Assembly: GCF_000381745.1 (NCBI RefSeq) | Contig: NZ_KB906967.1 | Coordinates: 62,001-126,000, forward strand | Direction: 5' to 3' | Length of the DNA: 64,000 nucleotides | Source of the DNA: Psychromonas ossibalaenae ATCC BAA-1528 | GTDB lineage: Bacteria; Pseudomonadota; Gammaproteobacteria; Enterobacterales; Psychromonadaceae | Part shown: one piece after another, positions 8,644 to 60,552 of the stretch | Position numbering within the stretch: the stretch's first letter is position 1 | Layout: each line of letters opens with the position of its first letter | The notes under the pieces: model-generated | What the model saw: only the letters and a program-made list of their open reading frames with translations | Databases searched by the model: none | Told to the model about the DNA's origin: nothing | Translations under genes and position numbers: made by a program

Positions 8644-11600
8644 TATGCTTCACCATCCCATTCGCTGTATTCGATGGTTGATATATTGCTTAACACCGGT
8701 TTAAAAATCTGCATAGCCAGCGTTTCAAAGACTAACCAGTGGTCTTCAAGGTTTTCATAAATACGAGTGATATAGGGATCCTTGCCTTCGGCATAGCTGC
8801 GTTCATTAGCAAAAATATCCACAGCGGCTTTCTGCGCCTCAGCGCGTGTATCAAAGTCTAAATCCTCAAGCACAAAACACTCAGGCTGCTGATAATGGGC
8901 GATGGTGCTCCATGCAAAAGCACTTTGGATAAAGAAAGGTAAAGGAAACTGCAGTCCCTGTTCGTATAAAGCAATTAACTCTGCAATTGTCCGATACGCA
9001 AAATCAGCAGGCACCTCTTCAAAAAAGATGCCGTTTTCCTGGCCGAATAAACTGGAGTTTAAATTCTGCCCGTGGGCAATACAGTAACAAAGGTGCTCTA
9101 ACCATAAAGATAAAATATCCTTACCTTTAATACCGCCGGTTTTAACCCGCACTAAGCCGTTTTCACAGTGATCGCTTAGCTCACCTGTTAAACGCTTTTC
9201 GGCAAATTTAATATCAACACTGATGGTTTCAATTTCACCTATAAAATAACTCGCGGTTAAATCCGCCAGATCTTCCATCGCCTGCAGATCTTTATTAAAG
9301 ATCAGAGGTGCAAACTCACCAAGAGGCAGTTCACCGGCGGCTTTAATTTCAGTAAACAGCTCATCCAGTGATTTCCCCTCTAAGGCATATTCAAACTGCT
9401 GACTTTTAAGGTGGTAATGCTGCAGATTGTCCAGTGAAAACGGCTCATCGTTATCTTGTTCGCTGTCGTCAATTTCAAAATAAACATCTAAACGCTGATT
9501 AAAGAAAGCTTTACAGGGGTGCTTAAGAAACTGTTTAAGCTGACTTAACTGTACTTCCAGCAAAGGTTCATCAAGCGGCACAAGAGAACTGCTGTCGGAC
9601 TGAACGGTTTCACGGTTATTTAACGCCAGCCACCAGTTGCGGTTGTAGGTTTGAACCGCCTCCAGATAATAAGAGTCACTGAAACTCTGCATCGGATAAC
9701 TGCGTTTAATAAAGTCCAGCAGCGCTTTTTCAGCCGCATCACTTGAGTCTTCGCGGTTCTTTTCTAAGACAAAACTCTGCTGACAGTAATTAAGCAGTTC
9801 CGAGACTAATACCGAGGCGGTTTTTTCACTGTTATCATTAATATCCCGGCCGATATAACTGATATAGAGATTATCCTGTGCAGAGAGCAGTGCTTCTAAA
9901 AACAGGTAGCGGTCTTCTTCTCGGCGGGAACGGTCGCCGCGATGACGGTGTCCTACCATCAGATCAAACCCCATGGGCACAATGCTGCGCGGATACTGAC
10001 CGTCGTTCATGCCTAATAAGCACACCACTTTAAATGGAATCGAACGCATCGGCATCAGGGTGCAGAAGTTAACCTGCCCGGCTAAAAAGCGCTGACTGTT
10101 AGACTGTGCAGAGAGGTGATTCTGCAGATGTTCAATCAGTACAAACAGTGACAGTTCCTGATCAAATTCAGCCTGCTGCGTATGCTCTAAGAGGATATCC
10201 AGCTGTTCGCGAATCATGCTTAAAACCGCAGTATTATCATCACCTTCAAGATAAAAGTCATCAACTAACTGGTAAATGAATGCCTGCCACTGAGCCGCAT
10301 TGTAGGATTCTTTCAGCTGTGTTTCCAGCTCGATTAAGGCATCGATGAAATCAATAAAACGTCCCAGCAGATCGCCCTGCAGCCCCTGCACTTCATCGTA
10401 GGGAGAAATACCGGCAAACATGCTGTCACCCATTGCATACCCCAGGAGCATACGTTTTAAACCGAATAACCAGCTGTTCTGTGACAAATCCGGCAGATCC
10501 CACTGAGCAGCACTTTTCTCATGCAGTCCCCAGCGGATACCGCTTTCATTAATCCACTTCTGAAGTACAACAAAATCGTCCTGATCCAGTTTAAAACGCT
10601 GCAGAATAGCCGGTACTTCTAAGAGGGCAAGAATATCTTCACGGGTATAACGACTCTGATTTAAGTTCAGCAGCTGCATAAAACTCACCAGAATCGGATT
10701 TTCCTGCTGCGCGCTGACATCGGAAATACTGAACGGAATATAACGGCTGCTTTCTACACTGGCGAAAACCGCCTGCACATAGGGGGCGTACTGGTCAATA
10801 TTCGGCACCATCACGATAATATCTTTAGGTGTTAATCCCGGATCCGCTTCAAACATGGCTAACAGATTATCGTGCAGAATTTCCACTTCACGCATCACAC
10901 TATGCGCCAGATGCACGCTTAATGACTGATCATCAAGATCAATAACAATACGCTGCGCGGCATCTAAACTGATTACCTGACTGCTGTCCTTCAGATCTAA
11001 GATATCCGCCTGAATATTATGCAGCAGACTGTCGCGGTTAATATCAACAAAGGCATCCACCTCCTGCTGCTCTAAAGAATACAGCTGATACAAAAAGTCA
11101 CGCCCCATTTTACCCATGGAAGCTAACAAAGGATTACCCACTTCACTGTCAACGTCCTCACTGACAGCCCACTTAAGGTGCTGTTCATCTTTCTGCCAGC
11201 TGGAGTCCGCCAGGTTTTTCACCTGACCTTTTTCTACGGCGAGTTTCGGGCGGCTCTGCGCAAAACGTTTGGCCAGCAGTTTAGGATCAACAATATCTCC
11301 CCAGTAAAAACGACAGGGATTGGTCAATAAAAAATGCACATCACAATGTTTAGCTAAACCTAATAACGCCTGTAGATAAGATTCAGGAAGCGCGGAGATA
11401 CCGAACACAAAAATACGTTTAGGCAGATGGCTTAGACTTTCCTGGGTGCTGAGTTTTTCCAGAAAATCTTTATATAAACCGGCACGATGATAAGCTTTGC
11501 CATGCTCAGCAAAACTCTGCTCAATCGCTTCCGTCAGTTTTTTCCACAGTTTGGCCTGCCAGCGCTGCTCATCAATCCATTGCGGTACGGACTGGCTGTT

Positions 11601-12095
11601 TTCACTGTTCCAGGAGCTGATCTCCTGCTGATCGGCATTCTGCCAGGCTTCAACCCAGTCTGGGCGGTAAACTAAATACTGATCAAAAATATCGGCTATT
11701 TTCTGGCTGAGCTGAAAGCGTTTACGTAAATCGGCATCATCTTCAAGATAGTGTAATAACGATGCAAAATCAGGATCTTCCAGACAGGAAGGCAGAAGCT
11801 TCATTATCTGCCAGGTCATGGACATTTTGTTAAACGGGCTTTTATCCGGCACATCCTGCAGAACATGTTTAAACTGCTGCCAGATAAAACTGGCCGGCAG
11901 CGGGAAATCAATATTGGCACTGATCCCGGTTGACTGTGCAATCTGCAGCTGCAGCCACTGCGCCATTCCCGGACTCTGCACAAGAATGGTTTCATTCTCA
12001 AAGGGATTTTCCAGCTTAGCGCCCTGCATTAGTGCCGTTAAAAGATCTTTTAAAAGCTCAAGCTGATTAGAATGATATACCTGAAACACAAGCAT
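8643..12095 (-). CDS. recC: Exodeoxyribonuclease V gamma subunit RecC
   Basis: RecC (1,150 residues) is the non-catalytic subunit that splits the duplex and recognises Chi. It begins MLVFQVYHSNQLELLKDLL and contains family-typical stretches such as VQSPGMAQWLQLQIA, RIFVFGISALPESYLQAL, DIIVMVPNIDQYAPYVQAVF, and the middle segment with GQVNFCTLMPMRSIPF, VCLLGMNDGQYPR and RRGDRSRREEDRYLFLEALL-like residues. It is the first gene of the recC-recB-recD cluster, so the promoter should lie in 12096-12288. Length matches E. coli RecC (about 1,120). No helicase motifs are expected and none are seen. Confidence 0.95.
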   Translation of the reverse strand: MLVFQVYHSNQLELLKDLLTALMQGAKLENPFENETILVQSPGMAQWLQLQIAQSTGISANIDFPLPASFIWQQFKHVLQDVPDKSPFNKMSMTWQIMKLLPSCLEDPDFASLLHYLEDDADLRKRFQLSQKIADIFDQYLVYRPDWVEAWQNADQQEISSWNSENSQSVPQWIDEQRWQAKLWKKLTEAIEQSFAEHGKAYHRAGLYKDFLEKLSTQESLSHLPKRIFVFGISALPESYLQALLGLAKHCDVHFLLTNPCRFYWGDIVDPKLLAKRFAQSRPKLAVEKGQVKNLADSSWQKDEQHLKWAVSEDVDSEVGNPLLASMGKMGRDFLYQLYSLEQQEVDAFVDINRDSLLHNIQADILDLKDSSQVISLDAAQRIVIDLDDQSLSVHLAHSVMREVEILHDNLLAMFEADPGLTPKDIIVMVPNIDQYAPYVQAVFASVESSRYIPFSISDVSAQQENPILVSFMQLLNLNQSRYTREDILALLEVPAILQRFKLDQDDFVVLQKWINESGIRWGLHEKSAAQWDLPDLSQNSWLFGLKRMLLGYAMGDSMFAGISPYDEVQGLQGDLLGRFIDFIDALIELETQLKESYNAAQWQAFIYQLVDDFYLEGDDNTAVLSMIREQLDILLEHTQQAEFDQELSLFVLIEHLQNHLSAQSNSQRFLAGQVNFCTLMPMRSIPFKVVCLLGMNDGQYPRSIVPMGFDLMVGHRHRGDRSRREEDRYLFLEALLSAQDNLYISYIGRDINDNSEKTASVLVSELLNYCQQSFVLEKNREDSSDAAEKALLDFIKRSYPMQSFSDSYYLEAVQTYNRNWWLALNNRETVQSDSSSLVPLDEPLLEVQLSQLKQFLKHPCKAFFNQRLDVYFEIDDSEQDNDEPFSLDNLQHYHLKSQQFEYALEGKSLDELFTEIKAAGELPLGEFAPLIFNKDLQAMEDLADLTASYFIGEIETISVDIKFAEKRLTGELSDHCENGLVRVKTGGIKGKDILSLWLEHLCYCIAHGQNLNSSLFGQENGIFFEEVPADFAYRTIAELIALYEQGLQFPLPFFIQSAFAWSTIAHYQQPECFVLEDLDFDTRAEAQKAAVDIFANERSYAEGKDPYITRIYENLEDHWLVFETLAMQIFKPVLSNISTIEYSEWDGEA

Positions 12096-12288
12096 CTACC
12101 TTTTTTTATAATTTTATATACACAGCGGCAGGATGACTTTTCACTGCCGTATTGCTTTTATTTTGCTTAATTTATAATAGTATACCGCTACTTACGGCTT
12201 TTATTTACCAGTCATTTCACAAAATGGTTTTTATAAAACCAGTATAATCAAGCATCTGATTTATTAGCAAATTCAAAAGGAGGTGACG

Positions 12289-13161
12289 ATGCTGCAGAGA
12301 TTCATTTATATTTTACAAATTTTTCTATTACTCATCAGTGCCCCGTTTTCATTTGCCGAATACAGTCTTTATGAAAGTTTTAAGGTAGTTGTTGCCAGAG
12401 ATGTAAGAGATGACTATTTTCGTTTTATTGCCGGACGAGATCCGCTTTCTGTAACCGATTTTTCAGGGGCTTTCAGCCGCCGTGATGTGGTTGAACTGGT
12501 ACTGCTGCAGCAGGCACTGCATTTAGGCGGTAACAAATATCCCTACCAGTTAATCTCAGTTGACTCAGACCACACCACCATTGATTACCTTAACAAAGGC
12601 GCCGTCTTATTAACCGGTACCTCGGTATGGCAGTCCATGTTTACCATGCAGAATGAGATCTATTTTTCCATTCCAATTATTAAAAACGGTCAGTTTGAAG
12701 CGGGACTGTATACCCGGCCCGACAATACAGAGATGCTTAAGGTTAAAAACAAACAGCAGGTGCGTAATTTCAGCGCTATATCAAATAGAATATGGACAGC
12801 GGACTGGTTAACGCTGCAGTCATTAAAAATCAGCGATGTTAAACACAGCGATAAATGGGGATCAATGGTCGATCTGGTACACAGCGGCCATATCGACTTT
12901 TTATTAGCACCTTTCCAATCAACAGAGGATCTTTCACTCACCTATAACGGTGTCAGACTGATCCCGGTGCCTAACCTGAAAGTCGCACTGCACGGTACCC
13001 GCCATTTTGCCATATTTAAAAAATCCAAGCATTCCAAACGTATTCTGCAGCAGTTAAACAGCGGCCTCACACAGCTGCAGGCTAGAGGTATTATAGATAA
13101 AGCCTATCGCGAATCCGGCTTTTTTAATGACCAGGTTAAAAACTGGAAACGTCTCAACTAA
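12289..13161 (+). CDS. Periplasmic substrate-binding-like protein (SBP family 3 type)
   Basis: A textbook AGGAGG lies five bases before the ATG at 12289, which decides this start over the GTG two codons earlier and gives 290 residues. A signal peptide (IYILQIFLLLISAPFSFA) ends near residue 24. The rest looks like the bilobal fold of extracellular solute-binding proteins: VVVARDVRDDYFRF near the start, DYLNKGAVLLTGTSVW in the middle, HSGHIDFLLAPFQS as the hinge segment, and QLNSGLTQLQARGIIDKAYRESGFF at the end. No permease or ATPase gene is adjacent, so it may be an orphan binding protein or a sensor partner. Ligand unknown. Confidence 0.6.
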   Translation: MLQRFIYILQIFLLLISAPFSFAEYSLYESFKVVVARDVRDDYFRFIAGRDPLSVTDFSGAFSRRDVVELVLLQQALHLGGNKYPYQLISVDSDHTTIDYLNKGAVLLTGTSVWQSMFTMQNEIYFSIPIIKNGQFEAGLYTRPDNTEMLKVKNKQQVRNFSAISNRIWTADWLTLQSLKISDVKHSDKWGSMVDLVHSGHIDFLLAPFQSTEDLSLTYNGVRLIPVPNLKVALHGTRHFAIFKKSKHSKRILQQLNSGLTQLQARGIIDKAYRESGFFNDQVKNWKRLN

Positions 13162-13184
13162 TCGCACTGATCAGCCCTGCTCCT

Positions 13185-15428
13185 TTACAGACCTTTCTGA
13201 TACTGACTGTTAGTTGTCTGCCCAAGCATATTATGCAGCTGCCCGGCAGCATCTGGGCTTCCGTCAATAAGATCGATAAAGCCTCTTATAATCGAAGTTT
13301 TATCTTTTTCACGCTGCTCCGTTATACCAATATCAGTTAAATCGATAAAGAAAGCGCTGAACTGCCCCGGAGCATCATTAACAATATCCGTGTTAAGAAA
13401 GTGCTCATTACTATACATATTTGCATAATCGCCCTTTTGTTTATTAATCGCAAAAGAGGTGCCTTTAAGGTTAATAATTGAGGCCGACTTTTCACATTTA
13501 TCCAGACATTTGGCATCCATAGCGGCTTTTTTACAGCCGACCGTCTGATGAAACAGGCACTGCCTGCTGCTGAGCAGTAAAAGCGGATGATAAATACTGT
13601 AATACAACTGAAAATTTTCTGGACTGGATACGGCTTTTATCTGCTTTTTATTAATCTCATTAGAGATAAATGCGCCGCTGCAGTTAAACTTCTGTTTCAG
13701 GCAGGCCAGACTGAAAGAGTTAGTTGTATTTAAGTACGGGCCGGCAGTCCAGTCAATACCCAGTTGATAAGCCAGATAAGCGATACCGGTATTATTAGTA
13801 ACAATTTTTTCCGGGGAGACCTGTTTAAGCAGCTGTGCAGCAGCCTCATAATCAGCACCGATCAGCACCGAAGGGAACCAGGGGATCAGTCCTTTATTCT
13901 TTAGAAACAGCTCCACATATTTTGCGCAGCCCTTTCTGAAACTGTCCGGCAGTTTATAATAAACATCGATTCCATCTACACAACACAGAGAAATATCCTG
14001 TTCACTGGAAATCAGCACAGCTAACTTAGCTTTGGCTGTGAGCGGCCCCGCATAGCTTAAGGCAGGAAGTTCAACGGGCGTGACTGCATCTTTTGAGCCG
14101 TTTAACAAAAATAATATTGTGTTTTTTATAACGGTAAGCTCTTTAAAGGGAATAAACAGACCTTCATCCAGACAGCGCATGCAGATAGACTCGATGCAGG
14201 TCAGTGCATTATTCAGCCCTTTCCATCTTTTATCTAGCGCACTTTGATTAATCGAAGCATTTTCGGTATGAATAAGCTTACTTTTCGAGCGCACCATAAA
14301 TATACTCTCAGGCGTGCTTACCGACACGTATAAAAGCTCACCGGGCTGGCCTGAAAGTGTGATTGTTAAAGGTGTTTTATCCGTATCTAACAGCTTAATT
14401 TTATCTGCAACCTCTGTCGCCATTGCAGTTTTCTGATCATAAAGGTCCTGTTTGGCCTGCTGAATCTGCAGCTCACTTAAACCTGCATTGCTCTGCTCAA
14501 CGTGTTTGAGCGTATTATCTCGCGGGTTATCAATAAACATCAGTTTATTAATGGTGCCTTTTAAGTAAGCGTTTGAAAAATCGCGGTTAAACACTTTATA
14601 GAGCGCAGAATTATCAGTCAGTAATTTTCCCTGCCCAGAAAAACTCTGCAGCTGCTTTTTCCAGCTGCTCACCACAGTATGAACGTAACTCGATCCTTTT
14701 ATCCGCCCTTCTATCTTTAACGAATAAACACCGGCATCAATCAGTGCTTCAAGATCAAAAAATGCCGAATTATCTTTAAGGTTAAGCGGATACTCTTTAC
14801 CGGCAGCTGTCGGTACATATTTATCTCTGCAGGGCTGGCTGCATCGACCACGATTACCTGAGTTGCCGCCGTGAGCAGAGCTTATATAACACAGACCGGA
14901 AAAACCGATACAGTATGAGCCGTGCACAAAAACTTCTGATAAGACATTATACTCAAGCCCGAACTGAGTTAAGGATTTTATCTCCTTGATGCTTAACTCA
15001 CGCGATAAATTAACCCGGGAAGCACCGAGTTTATTTAAAAACAGAATCTGCCCTTCATTATGGGTAGTAACTTGGGTAGAGGCGTGGATATCAAGAGTTG
15101 GAAAGTGTTCTGATAACAGATAAAAAAGCCCTAAATCCTGGACAATCACTCCGTCAACAGCAGTGTTGACCAGTTTATTGAGTAAAGTCAGCAGCGGTTT
15201 TAACTCATTTTCTAATATGATGATATTAAGTGTCAGAAAAACTTCACAGTTATGCTGATGTGCCAGTTTTATCACCCGGTTTAAATCATCAAAACTTAAA
15301 TTAACCGCACGTTTACGGGCATTAAAACTGTCCAGCCCGCAATAAACAGCATCCGCACCGGCAGCAATCGCCGCCTTAATAGAGTCAAGATCACCGCCGG
15401 GTGCCAGTAATTCAATTTTTTTGTTCAT
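13185..15428 (-). CDS. U32 peptidase family protein (RlhA/YhbU-like)
   Basis: This 747-residue protein starts IELLAPGGDLDSIKAAIAAG and ADAVYCGLDSFNAR, the TIM-barrel N-terminus of the U32 family. It carries the signature region EVFVHGSYCIGFSGLCYIS followed by SGNRGRCSQPCRDKY, whose cysteines probably bind an iron-sulfur cluster. The long C-terminal part has further cysteines (CIESICMRCL, CLFHQTVGCKK, AKCLDKCEK). Known relatives act in hydroxylation of 23S rRNA (RlhA), tRNA uridine (TrhP) or ubiquinone (UbiU/V), so 'peptidase' may be a historical misnomer. The length is closest to the RlhA-type two-part proteins, but I cannot decide the substrate. It is convergent with the gene before it. Confidence 0.7.
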   Translation of the reverse strand: MNKKIELLAPGGDLDSIKAAIAAGADAVYCGLDSFNARKRAVNLSFDDLNRVIKLAHQHNCEVFLTLNIIILENELKPLLTLLNKLVNTAVDGVIVQDLGLFYLLSEHFPTLDIHASTQVTTHNEGQILFLNKLGASRVNLSRELSIKEIKSLTQFGLEYNVLSEVFVHGSYCIGFSGLCYISSAHGGNSGNRGRCSQPCRDKYVPTAAGKEYPLNLKDNSAFFDLEALIDAGVYSLKIEGRIKGSSYVHTVVSSWKKQLQSFSGQGKLLTDNSALYKVFNRDFSNAYLKGTINKLMFIDNPRDNTLKHVEQSNAGLSELQIQQAKQDLYDQKTAMATEVADKIKLLDTDKTPLTITLSGQPGELLYVSVSTPESIFMVRSKSKLIHTENASINQSALDKRWKGLNNALTCIESICMRCLDEGLFIPFKELTVIKNTILFLLNGSKDAVTPVELPALSYAGPLTAKAKLAVLISSEQDISLCCVDGIDVYYKLPDSFRKGCAKYVELFLKNKGLIPWFPSVLIGADYEAAAQLLKQVSPEKIVTNNTGIAYLAYQLGIDWTAGPYLNTTNSFSLACLKQKFNCSGAFISNEINKKQIKAVSSPENFQLYYSIYHPLLLLSSRQCLFHQTVGCKKAAMDAKCLDKCEKSASIINLKGTSFAINKQKGDYANMYSNEHFLNTDIVNDAPGQFSAFFIDLTDIGITEQREKDKTSIIRGFIDLIDGSPDAAGQLHNMLGQTTNSQYQKGL

Positions 15429-53621: not shown

Positions 53622-54821
53622 ATGTTTGAATCTATTCGCCGCTTTGTAAAAAATGAGGCTTCCAGCGGCCTTATATTAATGGCGGCCGCAGTACTGGCTT
53701 TAATTGCAGCTAACTCTCCCTGGCAGCATATCTACGAGGTGCTTATTAATTTAAAGCTCACCGTTGCCGTTGAACAGTTAGCCATTTCTAAGCCCCTGTT
53801 GTTGTGGATAAACGACGGCTTAATGGCGGTATTTTTCCTGCTGGTCGGCCTTGAATTAAAACGCGAAGCCATTGAGGGGGAGTTGAATACGCCTAAAAAA
53901 GTCATACTGCCCGCTCTAGGTGCACTGGGAGGCATGGTATTCCCAGCCCTAATTTATACCAGTATGAACATTCAAGATGATATAGCCATTCAAGGCTGGG
54001 CTATCCCCACAGCCACCGACATTGCCTTTTCTCTGGGTATTTTAATTTTATTAGGTAAGTATGTGCCTAGTTCATTAAAGATATTTTTAGTCAGCCTGGC
54101 ACTTTTTGATGATTTGGGCGCGATCATTATTATCGCTTTATTTTATACAGAGCACCTGTCCCTGGGAGCTCTTCTTATCTCATCCGCCTGCATTGTGCTT
54201 TTATGGGCAATGAACAAAGGTCAGGTGGTAAGCAAAGCTGCCTATCTGATGGTGGGCGTGGTGATGTGGGGTTCTTTATTACAATCCGGTGTGCATGCTA
54301 CTTTAGCCGGAGTTATATTAGCCCTGTTTATTCCTATGCGGGGAGTAGACTGGGACGCTAATAAAATGCAGCCCCTGCACGAATTAGAGCAGGATCTTCA
54401 TGCACCTGTAGGACTTATTGTCCTGCCTTTGTTTGCCTTTGTTAATGCCGGCTTGTCTTTTTCACAATTAAACCTCAGCGATGTTTTTCAGAATATTCCT
54501 CTCGGCATTATTCTCGGCTTGTTTGTCGGAAAACAGGCAGGTGTCATGCTGACAGTCTGGCTGGGCATTAAACTTAATTTAGGGGCCATGCCGAAAAATG
54601 TAGGCTGGTCACATATGTACGGTATTGCAGTGTTGTGCGGTGTAGGTTTTACCATGAGTCTATTTATCGGCGGCCTGGCGTTTGAGCAGTCTGGAGACGA
54701 TCGCGTAATGCAGCATCGCCTGGGAATTTTATTAGGTTCATTGTTATCCGCGGTGTGGGCCGTTATATGGCTGCGCTATTTCTGCAGCCGGGATAATAAA
54801 AATGAAGAGGATGAAATCTAA
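53622..54821 (+). CDS. nhaA: Na+/H+ antiporter NhaA
   Basis: The 399-residue protein has about twelve helices and the NhaA signatures: NDGLMAVFFLLVGLELKREA near the start, ATDIAFSLGILILLG, and the ion-site aspartates in SLALFDDLGAIIIIALFY. A lysine in the later LFVGKQAGVM helix corresponds to Lys300. NhaA exports sodium in exchange for two protons at alkaline pH. AGGAG precedes the ATG. A Fur box upstream suggests iron-dependent control, which is unusual for nhaA. A second, distinct nhaA occurs at 58826. Confidence 0.93.
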   Translation: MFESIRRFVKNEASSGLILMAAAVLALIAANSPWQHIYEVLINLKLTVAVEQLAISKPLLLWINDGLMAVFFLLVGLELKREAIEGELNTPKKVILPALGALGGMVFPALIYTSMNIQDDIAIQGWAIPTATDIAFSLGILILLGKYVPSSLKIFLVSLALFDDLGAIIIIALFYTEHLSLGALLISSACIVLLWAMNKGQVVSKAAYLMVGVVMWGSLLQSGVHATLAGVILALFIPMRGVDWDANKMQPLHELEQDLHAPVGLIVLPLFAFVNAGLSFSQLNLSDVFQNIPLGIILGLFVGKQAGVMLTVWLGIKLNLGAMPKNVGWSHMYGIAVLCGVGFTMSLFIGGLAFEQSGDDRVMQHRLGILLGSLLSAVWAVIWLRYFCSRDNKNEEDEI

Positions 54822-54896: not shown

Positions 54897-57245
54897 TTAC
54901 TCCTGCTTCGATTTAAACTTTAACAAGCGCAGCGCATTAAGGGTGACCAGAGCGGTAGCACCACTGTCAGCCAGCACAGCCATCCACAGGCCGGTGATAC
55001 CAAATAACGTGGTCACTAGAAATACACTTTTTAACCCGAGTGCTAGAAAAATATTCTGACGGATATTATTCAACGTTGCTCTGGAAAGCTCAATTACCAT
55101 AGGCAGTTCTGCAATCCGGTTATGGGTTAAGGCAGCATCCGCTGTTTCCAGCGCGACATCCGTACCACCGCCCATGGCGATGCCTACTGAAGCTGACTTC
55201 ATTGCCGGCGCATCGTTAATGCCGTCACCAACCATAGCCACATGACCTTTAGTATTAGCAAGCTCCACTTCTTTAACCTTGTCTTCCGGCAGCAGACCCG
55301 CACGGTAATCCATATTCAATTCGCCGGCAATTGCTTTTGCCGCCCTGTCATTGTCTCCGGTAAGCATTAAACTGCTGACTCCCAGCTTAGATAAAGCACT
55401 CACAGCCGCCTTCGCATCTTCACGCAGGTTATCCCGCCACGCTAACATGCCGACAGGGACCTCGTCATAAAGCACCACCACTAGAGTCTTACCCTGCTCC
55501 TGCAGAGCGATGGTCTGTTCAGTCTGGCTGCTGGTAAGCTGGATATGCGCGGGCAGACGATCTGCAGCACAAAGCAGCACGGTGACATTATCGACTTCAC
55601 CCTGCACACCCTTGCCGACTATCGCCTCACGATGGTCAGCTTCAACAACCTTTATGCCCTGCTGCTCTGCTTCCGTTACCACCGCTTTAGCCAGCGGGTG
55701 AGCTGAGCCCACCTCAACCGCGGCACTTCGCCCCAGCAGCTGCTGCTTATTAACATGCCAGGCGACAACATCAGTCAATACCGGTTTACCCTCGGTAAGC
55801 GTCCCGGTCTTATCAAACGCAACCTGTTGAATATTACCCAGCTGCTCCAGTGCAGCGCCGCCTTTGATCAAAGCGCCGCGTTTTGCAGCGGCCGCCAGAC
55901 CAGAGGTAATAGCGGCCGGAGTAGAAATTACCAGAGCGCATGGGCAGGCGATTAACAGCAGCGTCAGGCCTCGGTATACCCAGGTGTCCCAAGGCTGCGC
56001 AAAAAATAGAGGAGGAACAACAATAACCGCGGCTGCCAGCACCATCATTGCGGGAGTGTACCAGCGGCTGAAGCGGTCTAAAAAACGTTCCAGTGGCGCC
56101 TTGCGTGATTCGGCCTCTTCAATCAGGTGCAGGATCCGGTCAATGGCATTAGCACCCGGTTCAGAGGTTATTTCAATTTGAACCACACGGTCCGCAGACA
56201 AAGAGCCCGCCATTACCTTTTCATTGTGTAAACGTTCAACAGGAACGGACTCACCGGTTAACGCACTTTCATCGAAACTGGTGGCCCGGGTCAGTAATAT
56301 CCCGTCGGCAGGCAGACGGCCGCCTGGTGCAACTTCAATAATATCACCGGGTTTCAGCTGTTCAGCAGAAACAGACTGGCGCTGCCCGTCTACTATCAGG
56401 GTCGCTTCTTCAGGTACCAGAGCCATTAATGACTTGATACCGCTGCGTGCTCGTCCCGATGCATAAGCCTCTAGTCGCTCCCCGAGCATAAACAGCAGCA
56501 GCACCATAGCAGCTTCGGCTGTTTCACCCAGGTATAATGCACCAACCGCCGCCACACTCATTAGAGTTTCAATAGCAAAAGGAGTACCGTTTTGGGCCAG
56601 ATTAATAGATTTACGTACTATGGGGATCAGCCCCCAGAGAGCAGCCAGAGTGAATGCGGCCTGCCCGTATGTTTCAGAAAAACGGCTGACAGCAAAAGCA
56701 GCGGCCATCAACAGGGTAAGAATAATCAGGCTGGCATTTTGTTTAAGCAGAGATGCTTCGGCTTGTTGTGAATTGGATTTACGGCCCTTGCTGGTCAAAG
56801 TGAATCCAGTTTTTTCCGCGACCTGCTCAACCGTCTCCAGCAGTTCCGGCCCGGCAAATTCAACCACTAATTTTTCGGTAGCAAACAAAACCTTAACTTG
56901 TTTAATACCGCTAATAGCCTTTACTGCTTTTTCTATTTTTTGAGCGCAGCTTGGGCAGTCCATCCCCTGGATTTTCCAGCTATAGGAATTTTTAAAGAGA
57001 ATATCATCAGCGGCCGCTTTTTCGCTGCTGTGCCCACTGGAGTAGCAGCTGCTTTTCTTATGACAAGAGGCAGAGGGTGGACTGTCGGGCTCCGAGCCGG
57101 GATCATCGTCCTGCTGTTCTGCAGTGCAGCAGGATTCACCCGCAGCAGTATCTAGTGAAGAAGATACCTGACCTTTTACATTTGGAAGCGCAGTTTGATG
57201 GCTTGGTTCTTTACATACATGACCATTACAGCAGTGACTAGACAT
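54897..57245 (-). CDS. zntA: Zn/Cd/Pb-exporting P1B-type ATPase ZntA
   Basis: The 782-residue protein has a Cys/His-rich extension (SSHCCNGHVCKEPSH, SCCTAEQQ, SCHKKSSCYSSGH), then a heavy-metal-associated domain with GMDCPSC at residues 94-100, eight helices including the CPCAL metal site, the phosphorylation loop FDKTGTLTEGKP and VGDGINDAPAM. The CPC motif with the ZntA-type last helix points to divalent zinc, cadmium or lead. AAGGAG precedes the ATG. The extension probably adds metal-binding capacity. Upstream lies a MerR-type promoter; the regulator gene is not in the window. Confidence 0.93.
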   Translation of the reverse strand: MSSHCCNGHVCKEPSHQTALPNVKGQVSSSLDTAAGESCCTAEQQDDDPGSEPDSPPSASCHKKSSCYSSGHSSEKAAADDILFKNSYSWKIQGMDCPSCAQKIEKAVKAISGIKQVKVLFATEKLVVEFAGPELLETVEQVAEKTGFTLTSKGRKSNSQQAEASLLKQNASLIILTLLMAAAFAVSRFSETYGQAAFTLAALWGLIPIVRKSINLAQNGTPFAIETLMSVAAVGALYLGETAEAAMVLLLFMLGERLEAYASGRARSGIKSLMALVPEEATLIVDGQRQSVSAEQLKPGDIIEVAPGGRLPADGILLTRATSFDESALTGESVPVERLHNEKVMAGSLSADRVVQIEITSEPGANAIDRILHLIEEAESRKAPLERFLDRFSRWYTPAMMVLAAAVIVVPPLFFAQPWDTWVYRGLTLLLIACPCALVISTPAAITSGLAAAAKRGALIKGGAALEQLGNIQQVAFDKTGTLTEGKPVLTDVVAWHVNKQQLLGRSAAVEVGSAHPLAKAVVTEAEQQGIKVVEADHREAIVGKGVQGEVDNVTVLLCAADRLPAHIQLTSSQTEQTIALQEQGKTLVVVLYDEVPVGMLAWRDNLREDAKAAVSALSKLGVSSLMLTGDNDRAAKAIAGELNMDYRAGLLPEDKVKEVELANTKGHVAMVGDGINDAPAMKSASVGIAMGGGTDVALETADAALTHNRIAELPMVIELSRATLNNIRQNIFLALGLKSVFLVTTLFGITGLWMAVLADSGATALVTLNALRLLKFKSKQE

Positions 57246-57294: not shown

Positions 57295-57326
57295 ATTATA
57301 AACCTTGGACTAACATCCAAGGTCAA
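57295..57326 (-). promoter_or_regulatory. MerR-type (ZntR-like) promoter and operator of zntA
   Basis: On the minus strand a TTGACC box (57326-57321) and a TATAAT box (57300-57295) are separated by exactly 20 bases. A perfect 8-6-8 palindrome (ACCTTGGA-N6-TCCAAGGT, 57302-57323) fills the spacer. The overlong spacer with an operator inside is diagnostic of MerR-family metal regulators that untwist DNA. Confidence 0.85.
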
Positions 57327-57370
57327 GCTTTTATTTGTAGTTATAGTAAGGTTTTGCTGCTGATGACTGG

Positions 57371-57425
57371 CAATAAAGGTTGTGACTACTTTAATGAAGT
57401 TTGTGACCGTAATTAAGATTGTGAC
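57371..57425 (+). repeat. Three transposase-binding-like repeats at the left end
   Basis: CAATAAAGGTTGTGAC (57371-57386), TAATGAAGTTTGTGAC (57392-57407) and TAATTAAGATTGTGAC (57410-57425) lie in direct order, spaced 21 and 18 bases. The tight packing recalls the right end of Tn7. Confidence 0.75.
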
Positions 57426-57446
57426 TCATTAGGTGGCAAAATACAT

Positions 57447-57478
57447 AAAAGGCGAATCAGAAATGGTTCGCTTTTTTT
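57447..57478 (+). terminator. Terminator-like hairpin inside the element
   Basis: GCGAA (57452-57456) and TTCGC (57467-57471) form a stem flanked by A- and T-runs, ending in seven T residues. It could shield the cargo from outside transcription. Confidence 0.6.
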
Positions 57479-57641
57479 ATTAGGTATTAATAAAATATTT
57501 TTCTAAAAGTCTCTTATGTTGCCTGTATAACCACAAAGATAACTTAGCTGTAGCGATTACAATCTGAACTGTACGACCAAAGAAACTCTACTGAGATCTG
57601 ATTTATGGTGTTTATAGACCCCCTTATTCTTCCATTACACC

Positions 57642-57680
57642 AAAAACGCTCGCAAACGGGAATAAGCGAGCGTGTTTTTT
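57642..57680 (+). terminator. Second terminator-like hairpin inside the element
   Basis: ACGCTCGC (57646-57653) and GCGAGCGT (57666-57673) form a perfect eight-base-pair stem followed by GTTTTTT. Confidence 0.7.
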
Positions 57681-57716
57681 ACTAGTTGAGGCGCCTGGGG
57701 GCACAAAAGGAGTTAG

Positions 57717-57929
57717 AGACAAAAAGCAAGAGGTGCCCCTATTCATACTGAAACATCCTTAAATTTAATTAAAGAGCTAAATCTAGAAAAAAGCCCCTCA
57801 ATCATAGGCGTTGGCGGTGGATCTTCAACTCTCGTAGATGATCTTCTTTCCAATGGCTATTCAAAAATTTCTGTTCTAAGCTCAAGTGGCAATGTGGAGA
57901 ATTATTCCAAAGAAAGGATATATCAACTA
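57717..57929 (+). pseudogene. Remnant of a class I SAM-dependent methyltransferase
   Basis: An open frame without its own start follows a TAG at 57714. It reads GAPIHTETSLNLIKELNLEK, then SIIGVGGGSSTLVDDLLSNG and YSKISVL, a clear match to the first part of small methyltransferases whose SAM loop is normally DVGGGxSxLV. The N-terminus is missing, and after about 60 codons the frame continues without a stop into the diguanylate cyclase sequence. It therefore looks like a gene cut at both ends and joined to its neighbour. A rare GTG at 57894 could start a longer cyclase, but this is not needed. Confidence 0.6.
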
Positions 57930-58784
57930 ATGAAAACTATTTTCAGTATATTTGAAAAGCGAGGGGCAAAGACTATCTGGCAACTTTCATGTTTTATGAT
58001 ATTGGTTCTGGCGATTGTGCAGTTTGGAGTAGGTGTAAGTATAAATATTGCCCCTATTTATATATTTCCGCTTTTGTTCAATAGTTGGTATGGCAATAAG
58101 AAAGGTGGTATTTTTTTAGCTGTTTTTTCTGCAATACTTTTGAGCATTGTTGAAGTCGTTCTTTCAAAGAATTCACTCTCCATTTCTGAACTGATATTTT
58201 TTACAACTCCATATCTAATTGCATATCCACTCTTGGTAGTGTTGGTAACTAATTTCAGAACTGTACATCAAGTCGAAATAACCGCAGCGGATACAGATAA
58301 TTTAACTGGAGTTCACAGTGTTCGAAGTTTTTATTGTGAGCTTGCCAATGAGATACTTCGTTCAAAAAGGTACAGTCATGTCTTTTCATTGGCTTATATT
58401 GATATAGATAATTTCAAAAAAATAAATGATTCACTCGGTCACTCAGAAGGCGATAAGCTGTTGATAGAAGTTGCAGATTGTTTGCGAGAATCTCTAAGGG
58501 CTACGGATGTTGTTGCGAGACTGGGTGGTGACGAGTATGTATGTCTGTTACCTGAAACAAGACAAGAAGAGGCTAAGGCTGCCTTTGTTAAAGTCTCCGA
58601 TTTACTGAAAGAAAAAATGAAAAAATATCAATGGGCAGTAAGTTTCAGTGTTGGTGTGGTTTCATTTGAAAACGTTCCTGACGATATCAAAGAGGCGATC
58701 AAAATTGCGGATAAGTTAATGTACTCTGTTAAGAATAATAAAAAAGGCAATATTGCATACCAGGTATACCAAACCAAAGCCTAA
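57930..58784 (+). CDS. Membrane diguanylate cyclase (transposon cargo)
   Basis: The ATG at 57930, behind AAAGGA, gives 284 residues. Four or so helices occupy about residues 14-115 (CFMILVLAIVQFGVGV, IAPIYIFPLLFNSWYG). The GGDEF domain reads ARLGGDEYVCLL with RATD five residues before it as inhibition site, and AYIDIDNFKKINDSLGHSEG as the metal and base site, so it is probably active. It is A+T-rich, unlike the nhaA behind it. A 41-base gap with CCTAAC...GTTAAC follows, perhaps a shortened attC scar. It would bring c-di-GMP input with the transposon. Confidence 0.88.
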   Translation: MKTIFSIFEKRGAKTIWQLSCFMILVLAIVQFGVGVSINIAPIYIFPLLFNSWYGNKKGGIFLAVFSAILLSIVEVVLSKNSLSISELIFFTTPYLIAYPLLVVLVTNFRTVHQVEITAADTDNLTGVHSVRSFYCELANEILRSKRYSHVFSLAYIDIDNFKKINDSLGHSEGDKLLIEVADCLRESLRATDVVARLGGDEYVCLLPETRQEEAKAAFVKVSDLLKEKMKKYQWAVSFSVGVVSFENVPDDIKEAIKIADKLMYSVKNNKKGNIAYQVYQTKA

Positions 58785-58825
58785 CCAAGCGAGACGTTAA
58801 CGCTTGTCAGTCGGAATGACTTTTT

Positions 58826-60175
58826 ATGATTACAGATCAGCAAGGAAATTCAGGAGTCACCAAATTGCCGAAGGAATTTGTTGATCGGCTGACGAGTCCT
58901 TTTGTGCGTTTCTTGCACATTGAGTCAGCTGGCGGGGTTATTCTTCTATTTTTTACTGTTGTCGCGCTGGTTCTATCCAACTCACCGTGGGCTGATTTGT
59001 TCGAACACGCCTGGGAGACACAGGTAGGCCTTCAGGTTGGTTCACTAGAGTTTGCCCGTTCGCTGCGAGAGTGGATCAACGATGCCCTGATGACGCTGTT
59101 TTTCTTTCTTGTTGCATTGGAGCTCAAGCGGGCGTTGGTTCTCGGAGAGTTGAACAAGCCTCGCATGGCTGCGCTATCTATTGCCGGCGCTCTGGGTGGT
59201 ATGATCGTCCCCGCCGCGATATTTCTGGCATTGCAGTCAGGGCAACCCGGCCAGAATGGTTGGGGCACTGTCATGGCAACCGACACGGCGTTTGTTATCG
59301 GCTGCTTGGCACTGCTTGGCTCGCGCATCCCTCAAAGCTTACGGGTGTTTATGCTGTCTTTGGCGATCGTTGACGATATTGGTGCCATACTTGTCGTTGC
59401 CATCGGCTACAGCAGCCATATTGTCTGGTGGCCGTTGGCGGTAGCTGCGCTTGGCCTGGTGATTATACGCGCCATGGCAAAGCTTGGTTTTCGTGGTTTT
59501 TCGCTCTACATGGTGGTGGGTGGGCTCATCTGGCTTGCAGTGGACGCGTCTGGAATCCACGCCACCATCACTGGTGTAATACTCGGCCTGATGACTCCAG
59601 CGCGTCGCTGGGTCAGCGACGCGCGGTTGTACGCGATATTGGATCAGGTTATTGCGCATCCGGCCAGCAGCGAAAGCAGCAGGGGCACAAAGGATCGACA
59701 GACATTGCAGGTGGCCGAAATTGCCGCGCGTGAAACGCTGTCTCCAGTGGAGCGTCTGGAGATAGCGCTGCATCCTTGGGTGGGCTTTGTTATCATGCCC
59801 CTGTTCGCATTTGCCAACGCCGGGCTGCCGCTAACTTTAAACGACCTTGGTGATTCGGTCACCGTGGCAATTTTCTTTGGTTTCGTGCTTGGCAAGCCTA
59901 TTGGTATTCTGTTGTTCAGTTGGCTGGCTATACGTCTGCACATTGCAATTCGCCCCCCGGAACTCACTTGGAGGCTGCTGAGCGGTGGCAGCTTGCTCGC
60001 CGGAATCGGCTTCACCATGGCGCTGTTTATTGCGAGCATGGCTTTCGACAAGAGCCTAATTGACAGCGCTAAGCTGGGCATCTTCCTCGCATCCGTTTTT
60101 TCTGCAGTGGCGGGGCTTGCCCTGTTGATGTGGTCGCCTACCCGTGGAATAACTCCTGAAGTGGGTCACAAATGA
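58826..60175 (+). CDS. nhaA: Na+/H+ antiporter NhaA, second and foreign-looking copy
   Basis: The 449-residue protein carries REWINDALMTLFFFLVALEL, MATDTAFVIGCLALLG and the ion-site SLAIVDDIGAILVVAIGY. Lys in VLGKPIGIL matches the functional lysine. It has a loop of about 45 residues absent from the first copy (HPASSESSRGTKDRQTLQVA) and a longer N-terminus. Its codons are visibly richer in G and C than the rest of the window, and it lies within a transposon upstream of an attC-like site, so it was acquired. The first nhaA is only 4 kb away. It probably adds sodium or alkaline tolerance. Confidence 0.93.
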   Translation: MITDQQGNSGVTKLPKEFVDRLTSPFVRFLHIESAGGVILLFFTVVALVLSNSPWADLFEHAWETQVGLQVGSLEFARSLREWINDALMTLFFFLVALELKRALVLGELNKPRMAALSIAGALGGMIVPAAIFLALQSGQPGQNGWGTVMATDTAFVIGCLALLGSRIPQSLRVFMLSLAIVDDIGAILVVAIGYSSHIVWWPLAVAALGLVIIRAMAKLGFRGFSLYMVVGGLIWLAVDASGIHATITGVILGLMTPARRWVSDARLYAILDQVIAHPASSESSRGTKDRQTLQVAEIAARETLSPVERLEIALHPWVGFVIMPLFAFANAGLPLTLNDLGDSVTVAIFFGFVLGKPIGILLFSWLAIRLHIAIRPPELTWRLLSGGSLLAGIGFTMALFIASMAFDKSLIDSAKLGIFLASVFSAVAGLALLMWSPTRGITPEVGHK

Positions 60176-60235
60176 AGGGCGATTCATGCGAGCATGGAGC
60201 AATGACAATGGGAGGGGCTCGTGTTGCCAAAACTG

Positions 60236-60297
60236 GCGCTAACAAGCCGCTGCACTCGGACTAGATACAGTTGTCGCAGGTGAGATAGGTGTTAATA
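60236..60297 (+). repeat. attC-like site downstream of the acquired nhaA
   Basis: GGCGCTAACAAGCCGCTGCACTCGGAC-like sequence (60236-60261) and CAGGTGAG...GGTGTTAATA (60277-60297) resemble the two sides of a roughly 60-base attC of environmental integrons. Pairing CTGCAC against GTGAG leaves one extra G unpaired on one side, as attC sites do. R' (GTTAATA) departs from GTTRRRY. No integrase is present. Confidence 0.45.
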
Positions 60298-60420
60298 CGA
60301 CTTCTAAAATCTATTTCTAAATCGGTTTGGTGGCGAAAGCGAGCGTAGATTTTTTTAATTAAATAGGACCTAGGAGACTGAACTGTCAGATAGAGTATGG
60401 GCGAGTATACATTAGCTAAA

Positions 60421-60492
60421 GTCACAAACTTAATTACAGTATTTTCTTAAAATTTATTTAAAAATCAATAAGCCTAGTCACAAACTTTATTA
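60421..60492 (-). repeat. Two transposase-binding-like repeats at the right end
   Basis: GTCACAAACTTAATTA (60421-60436) and GTCACAAACTTTATTA (60477-60492) are inverted copies of the left-end motif, 56 bases apart. Wide spacing recalls the left end of Tn7. Confidence 0.75.
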
Positions 60493-60552
60493 CCAGTCAT
60501 CAGCTGCGCTGCCGTTTATCAAGCAGTGAAGTGATCTCTAGAAATATGTGTT

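Follow-up and report, generated by a model that had tools for sequence, protein, structure and literature searches.

A 64,000-nucleotide stretch of the genome of Psychromonas ossibalaenae ATCC BAA-1528 (contig NZ_KB906967.1, positions 62,001 to 126,000; hereafter, the window) contains a 3,142 bp segment whose sequence supports its assignment as a non-autonomous Tn7-like transposon, with intact ends, an intact target-site duplication and nothing but cargo between the ends. Taking all the evidence together, we consider it probable that this is a natural element that is moved by the TnsABC proteins of one clade of Tn7-like transposons and is directed by a target selector to a ZntR-type operator, in this case that of zntA.

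The element spans window positions 57361–60502 and carries TGATGACTGG in inverted orientation at its two ends, as TGATGACTGG from 57361 and as CCAGTCATCA up to 60502, with GCTGC duplicated on both sides (Table 1); the length, the perfect 10-base inverted ends and the duplication agree in coordinates and letters with an earlier reading made from the sequence alone (the sequence-only reading). Inverted bases and a duplication alone are not beyond chance because 40 mononucleotide shuffles of the window yielded 25 pairs of 10 inverted bases with a 5-bp duplication located 1–10 kb apart, the real window containing two. The termini of the element, however, agree at 26 of 28 positions, compared to only 17 of 28 for the other real pair, and the motif AWNWTTGTGACT occurs in the window three times, always inside the element ends (0.17 expected; three occurrences reached in 0 of 100 shuffles). 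We accept the element as real because of these termini, the internal AWNWTTGTGACT sites and the presence of the same ends around different cargo and a different duplication in another Psychromonas genome, G018. The right end, on the 57361 side, encompasses three packed TnsB-type repeats (AATnAAGnTTGTGAC; plus strand, 57372–57386, 57393–57407 and 57411–57425), and the left end, on the 60502 side, two spaced ones on the minus strand, 56 nt apart. We infer that these five sites are bound by TnsB; the sequence-only reading had noted internal arrays of a 16-base motif.

The cargo consists of a GGDEF protein and an NhaA Na+/H+ antiporter, as that reading had it. The cargo nhaA has a GC content of 54%, the window one of 43%, and the encoded antiporter shares 37% identity with the resident NhaA (53622–54821). 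The remaining open reading frames (ORFs) of at least 80 codons in the element all overlap nhaA, as judged by eye, and neither the ORF list nor Pfam indicated tnsA, tnsB, tnsC or any other transposase gene among the ORFs of the element. Because tnsA, tnsB and tnsC are missing inside, the element was classified as a non-autonomous derivative rather than an autonomous member of the Tn7-like group. The features that place it in this group are the 5-bp duplication (GCTGC here, CTTAT in the sister element described below), the asymmetric TnsB-type arrays at both ends, terminal TG...CA, present as TGA, and the occurrence of the same end array at loci that encode TnsABC, both boundaries of such a locus being located only in genome G021. 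Miniature inverted-repeat transposable elements (MITEs) are likewise non-autonomous but are short and devoid of coding capacity, whereas the element is 3.1 kb long and carries two cargo genes.

Among the 24 genomes of the genus that we scanned, the end pattern is present in the window genome (G000), G018 and G005. The sister element in G018 (contig C253) is 5,325 bp long, has the same termini and is flanked by the duplication CTTAT. The backbones of the two elements are 90–98% identical (right end, 311/345; left end, 104/116 and 81/83), but the cargo between the ends is not alignable, that of G018 comprising an HNH protein, a Y2 transposase fragment, an unassigned 336-aa protein and a ferric-reductase-like protein. 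The left end in G018 retains three spaced sites, one of which was lost from the window element through deletion between repeats. A third copy resides on contig C13 of the window genome, where a right end that is about 93% identical over 122 bp, with sites at the same offsets as in the window, lies 7 nt past the gcvP stop codon, and a decayed left end follows about 5.3 kb further. The cargo of this copy includes an FKBP, a KamA/AblA-family protein and an AblB-family protein, of which the latter two presumably point to N-acetyl-beta-lysine, an osmolyte; along with NhaA in the window element, this is a hint that two copies within one genome carry salt-related cargo.

In the window genome, TGATGACTGG is found at 35 places, namely, the two ends of the element and 33 others, and reading of the flanks showed the array next to one of these 33, the C13 copy. 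A scan of assembled contigs for the end pattern returned at least 118 stretches; script-based screening of 118 of them showed the array in the two halves of the Psychromonas GLG-1 element, on a contig whose ORFs, where compared, are those of G018 contig C253, and one other match, L074, was judged spurious by eye. The window right end had no match among plasmid records at E 0.1. The whole element matched 68 plasmid records, and among the best 20 of the 68, the top ones cover nhaA only, at about 65% identity. In virus contigs, 14 stretches fit the end pattern and 34 fit the pattern of an end plus the operator; these are of varied printed length, and we take them as chance matches.

When the 394 genomes of the order were searched at the DNA level with the right end, 42 matched at E 0.001, many at short or inner stretches only; we took 18 stretches out of 17 of these genomes and read 19 right-end candidates in them. 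Two of these, in G358 and one of a pair in G162, are not clear ends, and the G319 candidate begins with TATAAAC. The termini of the relatives, placed on the basis of how far they lie from the first site and checked against a duplication for G021 only, read TGA, TGT or TGG, and non-TGT ends are known among Tn7-like elements (PMC11406308), so that the TGA ends do not denote a less-known branch as had been proposed. The spacing of the right-end array is identical in the window element, the C13 and G018 copies, G147, G095, G165, G065 and G021. The G147 right end is 89% identical to that in the window over 66 nt; a search of the genus of G147 gave matches in 4 of 11 genomes, the site array being covered in G147 only.

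The five genomes G147, G095, G165, G065 and G021 carry tnsA-tnsB-tnsC-tniQ-tnsD sets, identified by BLAST, next to gcvP, prs or rpoH. Pfam recognized TnsA, TniQ and TnsD domains in G147 and part of the set in G021 but gave no match for either TnsB that was scanned; the best solved relative of the G147 TnsB is TnsB of Tn7 (E 2.7e-39). In a midpoint-rooted tree of 14 TnsB sequences, those from the five array-bearing loci form one clade (support 100/100), apart from the TnsB of G005 and from that on contig C68 of the window genome. The complete element of G021 is 31.7 kb long with the duplication CTTGT, and a second right end directly abuts it, followed by a left end about 6 kb on. The tandem (C12, 308959 to about 346715) lies about 520 bp upstream of rpoH, and its second unit has no tns match inside but contains an insertion sequence-type transposase and two proteins that match the PADLOC candidate PDC-S31. 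In plasmids, TniQ of G147 matches 25 records, none over 80% of the query, and the right ends of two relatives match 2 and 32 records in short partial stretches.

A gcvP-type gene flanks 12 loci (C13 and G147 confirmed by family search, the others by eye), and this TnsB clade seems to use gcvP frequently for attachment; no paper that combines "Tn7-like" and "gcvP" was found in the open-licence literature. Of these 12 loci, 11 have a coding motif at a distance of 51–53 nt from the right end, 8 of them at 52 nt; in G095, the motif was not found.

A comparable regularity, absent from the sequence-only reading, is seen at the window insertion. Outward from the right end, the window and G018 sequences start with 33 dissimilar bases (7/33 identical), continue with a 27-mer identical at 22 of 27 positions, CTTGACCTT(G/A)GAT...TCCAAGGTT, and then diverge again (15/58). 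Judging from its letters and the neighbouring genes, the 27-mer is a putative ZntR-type operator, and the promoter serves zntA in the window and zntR in G018, where a Cu/Zn efflux gene follows (zntR and the efflux gene above the NCBIfam cut-offs). The right end is thus at offset 33 from the operator in both intact mini-elements (n = 2), and in both, the packed-site end faces the operator. We regard these as separate insertions because the duplications and the far sides differ. None of 20,000 random pairs of 160-mers reached 22/27 in register, the maximum being 19. Across the 394 genomes, the right end followed by the operator after a gap of 28–40 nt was detected in three, namely, the window genome, G018 with the same spacing, and G077, as a candidate at the level of the letters.

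With the centre of the duplication as the reference, approximately +31 to +57 is occupied by the operator. This interval falls within that bound by TnsD in attTn7, +23 to +58 according to the available part of PMC2918618, and in many Tn7-like elements, the packed-site end faces the att site (PMC11406308). Given the distances at both gcvP and the operator, a near-fixed spacing seems to characterize the family, whose targets would include the operator. That a sister element with different cargo keeps the same distance to the operator suggests that the borrowed machinery aims at a zinc-responsive promoter. An empty site, which the sequence-only reading had called for, is approximated in G002, where zntA (95.4% amino acid identity) has the same promoter and no insert; the similarity is 95.5% over 89 bp on one side and weak over some 30 bp beyond the insertion point, such that the exact junction itself has diverged.

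We searched for the machinery that could move the element. An rve-family search of the window genome gave four matches, one of which is the TnsB on C68, beside guaC and outside the array-bearing clade. The C68 locus (about 11262–15305), which adjoins guaC, encodes TnsA, TnsB, a short TnsC ORF and a helicase-like fragment (the helicase and guaC identified by eye); the TnsC ORF is 195 aa long vs 341 aa in two relatives, and the locus looks like a decayed Tn7-like element of a different clade. We rejected the C68 TnsABC, with its TGTCA-type repeats, as the partner, considering the position of its TnsB in the tree and the single, far-off TTGTGAC in the contig. At the other three rve loci, ORFs of at least 80 codons had no match to 14 TnsB sequences at E 1e-3, and one locus has an internal stop. 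With the G147 TnsB as the query, 10 of the 24 genus genomes matched, only G021 at near full length (59%); the other matches were at 25–30% over parts of the protein, that in the window genome at C68 only. A TGATGACTGG end some 10 kb from the TnsABC/TniQ/TnsD set of G005, next to a TIGR00275 gene, initially suggested this set as the partner. The set was rejected given that its TnsB clusters with four further TnsB sequences, and the array is absent from the 20-kb stretches of these four; furthermore, the left end was not found, and the TGATGACTGG end copy retains one site only. This G005 locus (C1, 3817606–3834862) has the gene order tnsA-tnsB-tnsC-tniQ-tnsD and large cargo with protease-, helicase- and CHAT-like letters, by eye; its TnsB matches 893 plasmid records, none at 60% or more. 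Because no TnsB of the clade was found in G000 or G018 (the assemblies are drafts, and G018 is 85% complete), a partner elsewhere in the window genome, as the sequence-only reading had assumed, is not supported as far as these assemblies reach. The interpretation given in that reading is supported in part, namely, for the nature of the element, its ends, its duplication and its cargo.

Under the scenario that we favour, the element, which combines a conserved packed-site right end, a conserved spaced-site left end and interchangeable cargo, would have been moved in trans by TnsABC of the clade whose tns-bearing members also encode a short TniQ and TnsD. TnsB of the helper would bind the arrays, and TnsA together with TnsB would excise the segment; a selector of the TniQ/TnsD type sitting on the ZntR operator would position TnsC such that the right end enters 33 nt away, analogous to TnsD at the end of glmS. 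The helper would have since been lost or would be located elsewhere, for example, on a visiting plasmid, and the two selectors seen in G021 and G147 could divide the work, one serving a chromosomal site and the other the operator. A more specific version, somewhat less likely than not, is that a ZntR/MerR-type operator is read by an additional target selector, for which the short TniQ encoded next to TnsD may be the candidate; cargo-only elements with exchangeable cargo would be parked just upstream of metal-efflux promoters, and the helper would not have to be resident. If the operator reading is true, this would be a second, protein-guided pathway towards mobile elements because metal-resistance operons are common on mobile DNA.

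Several observations weigh against selector-directed insertion at the operator. Operator-spaced insertions number two only, and the third copy sits at gcvP; because its end is nearly identical, the choice of target does not depend on the ends alone. An operator-like match within the 150-bp flank was found in 0 of 16 other right-end loci, and no autonomous element was seen at a ZntR operator in these loci or in the 394 genomes. The control with the reversed end-plus-operator pattern matched 2 of the 394 genomes, and the random pairs were drawn without restriction to promoters. In addition, the clade TnsB was not found in the two draft genomes that harbour the intact mini-elements. Among the tns-bearing loci, a duplication-flanked left end was found in G021 only, and there, the far flank of the second unit is TCTTT, not CTTGT, with one base missing at the point where the units meet.

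The main rival, which we consider rather unlikely, attributes the spacing to the host ZntR, which when bound to the operator would bend and untwist the DNA and cause TnsC to be recruited there, without a selector. MerR-family proteins indeed distort their operators, and this account agrees with the failure to find a TnsD-bearing element at such an operator in the 394 genomes and 16 loci. It also agrees with the available part of PMC2918618, where the distortion that TnsD causes in attTn7 is a key determinant of TnsC recruitment. Conversely, the tns-bearing members of the clade encode dedicated TniQ and TnsD, and the gcvP insertions hold their distance to a coding sequence.

It is unlikely, too, that the element derives from an autonomous transposon at this site whose tns genes were deleted in situ, without any movement in their absence. 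Deletion is a common route to non-autonomous elements, and the left end of the window element is already one site short through deletion between repeats. However, the backbone is shared up to about 333 and 180 bp from the termini at two loci and then diverges, so that two matching deletions would be needed; moreover, the G021 tandem is an extant case of a complete element next to a unit without tns genes. Random insertion into non-coding DNA near zinc genes, with the equal spacing a coincidence, seems very unlikely: there are only two cases, and promoters tolerate insertions, but the operators match in register at the same offset amid dissimilar surroundings to a degree that no random pair attained, both neighbours (zntA and zntR) are zinc genes, and both elements turn the packed-site end to the operator. 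Finally, acquisition of the cargo as integron attC cassettes, by a transposon without an integrase, is improbable because, despite a GCCTAAC core overlapping the GGDEF stop codon (58779) as well as that of the G018 HNH gene and one weak 55-nt RYYYAAC...GTTRRRY candidate about 135 nt past the G018 ferric-reductase-like gene, the window element contains no such pair of 37–170 nt.

Mini-Tn7 laboratory vectors, which consist of ends and cargo and are moved by a helper in trans, have the same composition as the element, which is natural, with different cargo in each copy. With Tn7 itself (TnsABC plus TnsD, attTn7 at glmS), as described in PMC11406308 and the available part of PMC2918618, the element shares the 5-bp duplication, the packed right and spaced left TnsB sites, and, if the operator is indeed the recognized sequence, the orientation of the right end towards it and its place within the +23 to +58 interval; it differs in having no tns genes, TGA ends and an operator as the proposed target instead of the end of a coding sequence. 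The clade of G147, G095, G165, G065 and G021 has the same right-end array spacing but possesses tns genes and uses other target sites. There are precedents for non-TGT ends, for a fixed spacing and for Tns proteins that act in trans. The att sites of Tn7-like elements named in the available parts of the literature are all genes (glmS, parE, tRNA genes and comM). Neither a ZntR operator as a target nor a family of cargo-only Tn7-like elements with a common backbone was met in the open-licence literature searched, including the available parts of PMC10293859, PMC8649781, PMC2918618, PMC10969869 and PMC11406308. If the proposed targeting is correct, a transcription factor operator read at a fixed distance would add a new class to the protein-guided sites, and cargo would be placed at stress-responsive promoters. 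The family offers natural compact donors with varied cargo, and the genus also has a complete element with tns genes; accordingly, target choice and mobilization in trans are directly testable.

Table 1 Coordinates (window numbering) of the transposon, its parts and the adjacent host features
Feature	Position	Strand	Basis
zntA, host gene by the insertion	54897..57245	-	NF008262 above cut-off
Putative ZntR-type operator/promoter of zntA (CTTGACCTTGGATGTTAGTCCAAGGTT), beginning 33 nt outside the right-end terminus	57301..57327	-	letters, neighbours
Target-site duplication GCTGC, right-end side	57356..57360	.	letters
Right end: terminus and three close TnsB-type sites at offsets 11, 32, 50	57361..57425	+	same offsets in G000 C13; 21/18 spacing also in G018, G147, G095, G165, G065, G021
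Right-end backbone common to the G018 element, 311/345	57361..57693	+	alignment
Terminator-like hairpin with T-run; similar hairpins after the array in relatives	57451..57480	+	by eye
Apparent gene remnant in cargo, methyltransferase-like letters	57750..57880	+	by eye
Cargo GGDEF (diguanylate cyclase) protein, 296 aa	57894..58784	+	PF00990, E 1.3e-38
Cargo NhaA Na+/H+ antiporter, 449 aa	58826..60175	+	PF06965, E 3e-134
Left-end backbone common to the G018 element (104/116 and 81/83), with one spaced site less than there	60322..60502	-	alignment
Left-end TnsB-type site 2	60421..60435	-	letters
Left-end TnsB-type site 1 (terminal)	60477..60491	-	letters
Target-site duplication GCTGC, left-end side	60503..60507	.	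letters

The right-end backbone ends on its inner side (57640–57693) in a hairpin module, CGCTCGCAAACGGGAA..AAGCGAGC, which may be a place of cargo exchange between Tn7-like elements. The module recurs in G002 (C67, about 1490–1560), behind repeats that, by eye, resemble those of the guaC-type element, and the segment that precedes it has two further copies in G005 (C1, 3806363–3807418).

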